From assembly GCA_000403415.2 (NCBI GenBank), contig KE159696.1, positions 231,893 to 272,083 of the forward strand: a DNA stretch of 40,191 nucleotides. Reading direction: 5' to 3'. A program made the translations under genes and the position numbers. Positions 1-1,169 of this stretch are shown piece after piece. This stretch comes from Firmicutes bacterium M10-2. GTDB lineage: Bacteria; Bacillota_I; Bacilli_A; Erysipelotrichales; Erysipelotrichaceae. Under the pieces are notes generated by a model. It was not told the origin of the DNA and made no database searches. It saw only the letters and a list, made by a program, of their open reading frames with translations. How positions within the stretch are numbered: position 1 is the stretch's first letter; every line of letters starts with the position of its first letter.

Positions 1-379
1 ACGAACAAGCAAATGTAGGTATGTACCGAAGGCTGATTCGGGAAATTACGACTGTGGAGTGTACAAGAACTTGTGAGTAGTGTTGCTGCTTACGGAACAC
101 AAAAGCATACACGAAGAAGCAGTAAGAAATATCCGTGAGGATTTCAATTCTCGATGTGTTTGAGTGTGTTTAGACACATTTTGAGTAGCAGAACGTTCAA
201 CGACTATTCCTCTTGAGGGAAGTAGGATTCAAGAGAATCCGAAGTGGACAGCCCCTAATACGTTATGGTAAGGGAGAAGATATAGTCTGTGCTTACATGA
301 AAGTGTAAGAAGTTCATAAGAGAACTGCATAGAAGTAGCGATTCTATGTGAACGATACCTCAAAAATGGTTAAAGAATC
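1..379 (+). ncRNA. Group I intron catalytic core
   Basis: The two conserved halves of the P7 helix are readable: CAACGACTA at about 199-207 and AAGATATAGTCT at about 279-290. Between them lie two small hairpins (TTCCTC/GAGGGAA and GGATTC/GAATCC), which fit the extra P7.1/P7.2 stems of subgroup IA introns, and a CCCCT/AGGG stem fitting P8. About 200 nt upstream would hold P1 to P6. The intron is expected to use guanosine to splice itself from the host transcript. The 5' splice site is not in the window. I did not fold the full RNA; P3 to P6 are not assigned. Confidence 0.8.
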
Positions 380-384
380 GTTGT

Positions 385-779
385 GGCGGTTCTATATATG
401 TTAAATAAATCTTTATTATTTTAGTTTTAAAGATAATGACGTTATTGTTTTACTATAATATATAGGTTATAATTTTCATAGTGATAATCATAGAAGTTAA
501 ACATGACAGAGGTTATGTATAAATATTGGATGACGATATTGATGAGGATCGAATCAGCTATCCGAAAACACGGAAGAGGAGAAATGATGCCGGCTGCATA
601 TAAAACAGAGAAACGCACGATCGGTTATGCTGAATGTTCACGCATTTTGACAACTATAAAAAAAGATCTTTCTGTTTGTCCGCAATGTCAATCTGTTCAT
701 GATCGAGATGTGAATGCGGCAATCAATATCAGACAACAAGCATTACAAAATATTTCAATTTAACATATGTAGAACCGCC
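385..779 (+). repeat. 18-bp inverted repeat looping out the tnpB remnant
   Basis: The arm at 385-402 (GGCGGTTCTATATATGTT) pairs with 762-779 (AACATATGTAGAACCGCC). In RNA this gives 17 Watson-Crick pairs and one G-U wobble. The stem would loop out the 359 nt containing the tnpB remnant and bring the intron core next to the 3' structured region. The distal arm overlaps a local hairpin (CCGCCG/CGGCGG, about 775-790), so the two pairings cannot form together. Confidence 0.8.
503..763 (+). pseudogene. tnpB: tnpB remnant (RNA-guided nuclease, internally deleted)
   Basis: This is an 86-residue frame; intact TnpB is roughly 350 to 400 residues. The C-terminal part has CPQC followed by HDRDVNAAINIR, the end of the zinc finger plus the last RuvC motif with its aspartate. 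The first CxxC pair of the finger is gone. The middle residues (GEMMPAAYKTE) resemble the MMP-x-YK-x-E stretch near the N-terminal third of TnpB. A large internal deletion therefore joins N-terminal and C-terminal scraps. The nuclease is certainly dead: most of the RuvC fold and the other catalytic acids are missing. The frame is kept open, which may simply be chance. The family call is secure from the C-terminal motif. Confidence 0.85.
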
Positions 780-863
780 GGAACGGCGGGGATAGCCCTG
801 TGATACTTGGCTCGTTAGAGTCATTGACAGGGAACCTTGTGACTTTAGTCATGTGAGGTTCAG
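764..863 (+). ncRNA. omegaRNA-like right end of the IStron
   Basis: Directly after the tnpB remnant is a chain of stems: CCGCCG/CGGCGG (about 775-790), CCCTGT/ACAGGG (796-801 with 827-832), and a terminal hairpin GAACCT/AGGTTC (832-861) with an inner TGACT/AGTCA. In IS605/IS607 elements this position carries the omegaRNA scaffold that guides TnpB, ending at the right end of the element. The 3' splice site of the intron should also fall here. Assignment rests on position and structure, not on an alignment. Confidence 0.65.
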
Positions 864-1169
864 ATACATTACGATGAATGGAACAACAATTTAATTGTTT
901 CTCATGGTGAGAATGGTCCTAGTTCAAATCATATTTGGACGATTTATGATTTGGATACTTCTTCCGAAACAATAATTCCTATTGATTTTTCGAAATTTAA
1001 AGAAGGAATCCCTATTCGATCTGCTTTCTTTGCAAGCGGAGCTTCAGAATATTATCTCCTATTTCCTGATCGTTTATGTGTATATGACATCGAAACAGAA
1101 ATTTCAACAATATATGAATTGGATAAATATGGAATAGATGATGCAGTATTGATTGTATTAAATGAATAA
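864..1169 (+). CDS. 3' end of an unrecognised gene interrupted by the IStron
   Basis: The frame is open from 849 to the TAA at 1167-1169 and reads about 100 residues from the exon junction, starting near IHYDEWNNN. A TTG at 951 could serve as a start but has no ribosome site, and the coding-like sequence extends well upstream of it. This is therefore the 3' exon of a longer protein. Repeated short strands such as IWTIYDLDT and LCVYDIETE look like blades of a beta-propeller, but I do not recognise the family. Precise intron splicing would restore the mRNA. The 5' exon is outside the window, so whether the frame is kept cannot be judged. Confidence 0.6.
   Translation: MHYDEWNNNLIVSHGENGPSSNHIWTIYDLDTSSETIIPIDFSKFKEGIPIRSAFFASGASEYYLLFPDRLCVYDIETEISTIYELDKYGIDDAVLIVLNE

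Follow-up and report, generated by a model that had tools for sequence, protein, structure and literature searches.

Features of the locus

The window, that is, the whole stretch of 40,191 nucleotides of Firmicutes bacterium M10-2 that was analysed, starts where a run of N in the scaffold ends. Its first part contains the right end of one mobile element, the remnant of a second one whose 5' end is lost, and the host gene interrupted by the latter.

1-191, forward strand: right end of an unrelated IS607-type TnpB element, which cuts the IStron and lies outside its intron; RAGATH-18 match, and copies at 11 other places of the genome
51-125, forward strand: guide RNA core of this IS607-type element, identified as RAGATH-18 (Rfam RF03064, 70.0 bits, E 3.7e-12)
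192-354, forward strand: surviving 3' part of a group IA2 intron (J6/7, P7, P3', P8, P9, P9.1, P9.2 and the GAAC motif), from homology and a partial Rfam match
357-375, forward strand: ACCTC ... ATGGTTAAAG, a second strand with a distant complement, namely the 3' half of the terminal right-end hairpin; supported by the pairing test in the family
384-406, forward strand: 5' arm of the long-range (IR) stem; 384-389 duplicate the 3' strand of hairpin 1
503-763, forward strand: degenerate tnpA/tnpB remnant ORF ending in a TnpB zinc-ribbon (Pfam PF07282, E 1.4e-7)
745-863, forward strand: omegaRNA scaffold and right end, with the IStron 3' end TTCAG at 859-863 (group A end motif, PMC4227781; copies in the same genome end at 863-864)
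758-780, forward strand: 3' arm of the long-range stem; 775-780 are in common with hairpin 1
775-789, forward strand: first omegaRNA hairpin (hairpin 1), CCGCCG GAA CGGCGG; 99.3% paired in the family, with double changes
832-861, forward strand: GAACC...TTTA...GGTTC, the terminal hairpin of the right end; 357-375 compete for its 3' half
864-1169, forward strand: 3' exon of the host gene that was interrupted; its frame is open from the base that follows the IStron; no Pfam match

Positions 192-863 hold the remnant of an IStron of group A. In the part of Tourasse 2014 (PMC4227781) dealing with group A (CdISt1, EfISt1, CcISt1 and FnISt1; see also Braun 2000), the 5' end of these elements follows a T-rich pentanucleotide, and they share with the window element an IA2 intron, an IS200/IS605 part after the P9.2 GAAC motif, an IR stem around the ORFs and a 3' end in TCAG. 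In the window, 192-354 is 87% identical to L023, a plain intron of this family, 78-82% identical to plasmid introns and 76.6% identical to a Clostridioides phage copy; GAACGA at 350-355 is followed by the arms and the tnpB remnant, the IR stem (384-406/758-780) surrounds the ORF region, and TTCAG at 859-863 is accompanied by the IS200/IS605 subterminal hairpin at 832-861. Together with the zinc-ribbon remnant, these features bear out the identification of an IStron in the earlier note, which had been made from the sequence letters. Homology to introns starts at 192, near P7, and the intron core is retained only from about P7 on. Rfam Intron_gpI, the kind of covariance model with which the earlier note had proposed to check the intron, does match the window, but with 26.3 bits, below the gathering score of 50, in comparison with 73.0 and 65.9 bits for intact relatives. 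The TnpB part is likewise incomplete, being an 86-aa ORF with the TNB zinc-ribbon alone.

The earlier note had set the left frame wrongly by proposing to fold 1-870 as one intron. The right end at 1-191 recurs at 11 other genome places, each diverging at about 191, and it breaks the intron in the 3' strand of P6; this repeated right end and its RAGATH-18 core rule out 1-191 as the 5' part of the intron. The element carries the same guide RNA as the IS607-type TnpB with RAGATH-18 reRNA described previously (PMC11061315), and it is a separate element that merely adjoins the IStron remnant. A weak RAGATH-18 match of 32.9 bits, below the gathering score, was also obtained in a CdISt1-like omegaRNA (L021, 2148-2202), a hint at a relationship between the guide RNAs of IS605 and IS607.

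Because the window begins right after a run of N, a split intron continuing beyond the IS607-type element is possible, and the assembly gap upstream may hide the 5' half of the intron; in the assembled genome, a search with the 5' half of an intron of the same family gave a 25-base match and no more. One and the same terminator-like palindrome, and likewise one IS-end-like repeat (GTGTTGACAAACTACC...), are present on both sides of the gap (4862-4990 of L017; 1838-1936 and 2022-2056 of the window), as if a further IS had been inserted there.

The long-range stem and hairpin 1 in the window

The earlier note had described an 18-base pairing with one G-U between arms 385-402 (GGCGGTTCTATATATGTT) and 762-779 (AACATATGTAGAACCGCC), and exactly this was seen, with 17 Watson-Crick pairs and one G-U. 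The stem can be extended to 384-406/758-780 (23 bp, two G-U pairs), and it is the top inverted repeat within 192-863, scoring 56.5 when none of 60 shuffles exceeded 30.5. The complete 5' strand of hairpin 1 (775-780/784-789) lies within the distal arm. The overlap between stem and hairpin noted earlier was thus present, but its extent had to be corrected from five bases (775-779) to six (775-780), because U384 can also pair with G780. That the two folds are mutually exclusive, as had been claimed, was reproduced in the thermodynamic ensemble of 192-863, in which P is 0.999 for the stem and 0.0 for the hairpin; once the 5' arm is removed, the hairpin reaches P=0.976. In the minimum-energy fold, this stem, called hereafter the inner helix, appears nested with a second, outer helix formed by 357-375 and the terminal hairpin.

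The window copy cannot splice in cis because everything 5' of about P7 is missing. The 5' half of its intron was not found in its own assembled genome, and its tnpB also is a remnant; the view of the earlier note that this very copy switches between splicing and guide RNA is therefore not supported. It is a broken relic of a two-fold element without a working switch. We regard its stem as very probably a fossil that is functionless now, a reading compatible with the main explanation for intact relatives, on the basis of the missing 5' half, the remnant state of both tnpA and tnpB, and a genome in which no cognate TnpB with this guide scaffold was seen; both long-range helices are nevertheless intact in the window sequence, suggesting that the decay was recent. 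A cognate TnpB acting in trans was also considered and rejected. The one intact IS200/IS605 TnpB (L383, C12:571370-572461) has 367 aa and adjoins a transposase-like region, and a copy of the IStron right-end scaffold was not found at it.

Two other IStron relics are present in the same genome. One of them (L018, C1:292318-292726) has kept the 5' arm without the GCGG extension and has lost hairpin 1 by deletion, and the other (L019, C17:60299-60402) consists of the right end alone.

Position and covariation of the two helices among relatives

Relatives were collected by pattern scans combining the P7 motif with the right-end hairpin, which gave about 28 IStrons with both arms, and intron-less IS605 elements with the same hairpin (n=19) were used as controls; a viral scan with a tight arm pattern gave no match. 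About 28 other group A IStrons have the same long-range stem just 3' of P9.2. When 1.7 kb was scanned for the best complement of the hairpin-1 region, it was located just past the P9.2 GAAC motif in 21 of the 27 IStrons, and in the 19 controls it was weaker and at scattered places. The median energies were -22.1 kcal/mol for IStrons versus -19.1 kcal/mol for controls (P=0.0009), a comparison that under-scores L091, whose arm lies outside the scanned range and gives -43 kcal/mol when measured directly. The stem has 11-28 bp here, as against the 6-10 bp found for group A in the IR-stem part of Tourasse 2014 (PMC4227781).

An arm pairing that lacks covariation among homologues, the outcome that the earlier note had set against its own proposal, is the opposite of what was obtained. 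Outside the hairpin, 96.7% of the cells are paired in 20 sequences and 11 of 15 pairs have changed on both sides, in a count made without four sequences whose stem has lost one base pair through deletions in both of its strands. With the register of the 5' arm fitted to the pairing, covariation of this part is 0.526 versus 0.165 in shuffles (0 of 500 as high), and slid controls reached at most 0.143. Compensatory changes, which the earlier note had expected to look for in both stems, are found also in hairpin 1, where double changes occur at three pairs.

This strongest covariation belongs to the part of the stem outside the hairpin, which is also present in the non-overlapping Enterococcus-type IStrons, and as early as 2014 an IR stem was reported for every IStron (PMC4227781). 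All three points favour a stem whose one task is to close the intron and keep the 3' splice site in place, and which reaches over hairpin 1 incidentally and without a regulatory role. We consider this rather unlikely, in view of overlap bases that follow the changes of the hairpin in two hairpin types (that of the window and that of L131, L167 and L178) and of overlap pairs that exceed chance. In the window, the hairpin strand is CCGCCG versus the common CCGTAG, a TA to CC change at hairpin positions 3-4, and both the 5' arm and the 3' strand of the hairpin have changed to GG, matching it; in L131, L167 and L178, a C to G change at hairpin position 1 is matched by both partners. In the window and in L131 and L167, the shared bases covary with both partners, as a shared-base element in the sense of the earlier note implies, with the reservation that the informative three-way cases are few, that related sequences are not independent, and that the overlap evidence rests on few independent hairpin variants.

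Over 24 sequences, the Enterococcus-type ones included, the overlap helix is 70.1% paired with double changes at three pairs, and its covariation is 0.192 versus 0.125, with 0 of 500 shuffles as high. When the register was fixed by bases outside the hairpin, at least five of the six overlap pairs were formed in 13 of 20 CdISt1-like elements, and the mean number was 4.75 versus 2.08 for neighbouring hexamers, which represent chance. In L087, L183, L203 and L211, the overlap requires bulges or a shifted register; L087 was left out of this strict test and the other three were scored low in it. In Enterococcus-type IStrons (hairpin CCGAAG), the stem is present with an overlap of just 0-3 bases, and the coding part of tnpB seems to continue into the arm. 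The stem extends over the hairpin strand in the CdISt1-like majority and does so weakly or not at all in Enterococcus-type IStrons. The earlier note had taken the shared-base switch to be particular to the window copy, and this had to be given up in view of the widespread overlap among CdISt1-like IStrons.

Several IStrons are ORF-less (L045, L116, L090 and L202). In two of these, L045 and L116 of Clostridium sp. DSM 8431, there is a join at a direct repeat, AACTACGG, whose copy in the 5' arm runs directly into its copy in hairpin 1, apparently through loss of the ORFs between the two copies. The joins support a 5' arm carrying a copy of the hairpin strand. The same apparent deletion derivatives are predicted if the copies act at the DNA level, either as inverted and direct copies around the ORFs that promote slippage or recombination and ORF loss or as a scar of the joining of intron and IS, and the loss of the BcISt1 ORF between direct repeats, described in the part of PMC4227781 on that element, points in this direction too. 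Slippage, however, needs no covariation of base pairs, G-U pairs included, yet such covariation is seen, and the position next to P9.2 in the RNA is fixed; an origin or action at the DNA level appears to us very improbable.

The outer helix is also found across the family. Its strand just past P9.2 is typically AACCTC...ACGATTAAAG, and its partner is the 3' half of the terminal hairpin (CTTTAGTCGT...GAGGTT); 215 of 264 cells are paired (81%), with 0 of 5000 permutations as high, and its energy is -12 to -30 kcal/mol versus -8 to -17 kcal/mol for the local terminal hairpin. This helix would bring the 3' splice site to the intron core.

In ensemble folding, which is at equilibrium and ignores tnpB translation, co-transcriptional folding, pseudoknots and TnpB binding, 11 elements (the window, L051, L073, L110, L131, L149, L167, L211, L236, L206 and L222) had a hairpin-1 probability of about 0 in the presence of the arm and of 0.85-0.99 in its absence, and the effect of the arm was similar in L203 and L094. 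Such suppression and restoration of the hairpin was not followed by L178, L140 and L052, and in L021 and L202 hairpin 1 was weak or not predicted even without the arm. Because L178 and L140 keep some hairpin and Enterococcus-type IStrons have the aforementioned short overlap, exclusivity at hairpin 1 is not universal.

The proposed two-fold mechanism and its meaning

The comparison of relatives supports, without proving, the view that in many group A IStrons a strand near the intron core captures guide hairpin 1, so that the RNA would fold as intron or as guide and never as both. On the basis of conserved position, covariation of both helices and exclusivity in the ensemble, all of which come from comparison and computation, we lean towards regarding the shared strand in group A IStrons as an element with two states, by which RNA in the intron fold is kept apart from RNA in the guide fold. 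A strap of about 60 bases directly 3' of P9.2 would complement two parts of its own guide RNA, namely the terminal right-end hairpin in the outer helix, and hairpin 1 with the bases preceding it in the inner helix. When both helices are formed, the IS part would be looped out with the 3' splice site at the intron core, and both hairpin 1 and the terminal hairpin would be excluded; without the 5' arm, or with the arm displaced, the local hairpins would form and the omegaRNA scaffold would become available to TnpB. RNA with the strap would then tend to the intron fold and RNA without it to the guide fold. The intron fold may promote splicing and may protect the precursor by hiding the scaffold from TnpB, and the guide may come from transcripts whose start lies within the element, past the 5' arm.

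This last point can be extended to sorting by start site, in which RNA from the host promoter has the 5' arm, folds as intron and hides two guide hairpins, while a promoter just downstream of the arm would give arm-free guide RNA for TnpB, one shared strand having two co-evolving partners. Near-consensus sigma-A promoters are located between the 5' arm and tnpB in L047, L131, L104, L152, L167, L183 and L211, and the signal across elements is modest, 3 of 28 being individually below 0.05 (Fisher P=0.004). The promoter idea is weakly supported, and we put forward start-site sorting as a doubtful extension. Near-consensus promoters just 3' of the arm in L047, L167 and L211, from which arm-free transcripts would start, are expected also if the 5' arm, in which the 3' strand of hairpin 1 is duplicated, serves as an internal antisense regulator of the omegaRNA in cis, or in trans from excised intron RNA, and does not close the intron. 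Besides the modest promoter signal, the fixed position past P9.2 and the outer helix favour an intron-closing role, and we find such an antisense quite unlikely.

The conflict of splicing with guide RNA production in IStrons is known, and in the C. botulinum IStron studied by Zedaveinyte in 2024 the two are reportedly mutually exclusive. That IStron is an IS607-type element, resembling the case proposed for group A in this exclusion. Group B IStrons (BcISt1 and CbISt1-4) also have a long IR stem, as in group A, but they belong to the IS607 family and their stem is formed with the AU-rich 3' end and does not involve hairpin 1; in the part of Tourasse 2014 on group B (PMC4227781), the 3' direct repeat is described as able to pair with the 3' IR instead, which is an analogous competition. 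This competition between direct repeat and 3' IR is shown by L160 and L170, two IStrons in viral contigs whose TnpB relatives are IS607-like and whose IR stems, AU-rich and very long, are of the group B type. As to group A, the IR-stem account in Tourasse 2014 (PMC4227781), which dates from a time when the guide RNA was unknown, draws no link to a guide RNA, whereas the stem extends over omegaRNA hairpin 1 in the CdISt1-like set studied here.

The shared-strand overlap may be new, and what is added here is the overlap of the group A stem with omegaRNA hairpin 1 and of the outer helix with the terminal hairpin, together with covariation and intron-less controls. A defined shared strand would give the conflict between splicing and guide RNA a physical basis that is open to point-mutation tests. 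It would also mean that two unrelated structured RNAs are packed in one transcript, and would represent a natural design for a guide RNA that is kept off until the upstream arm is absent.
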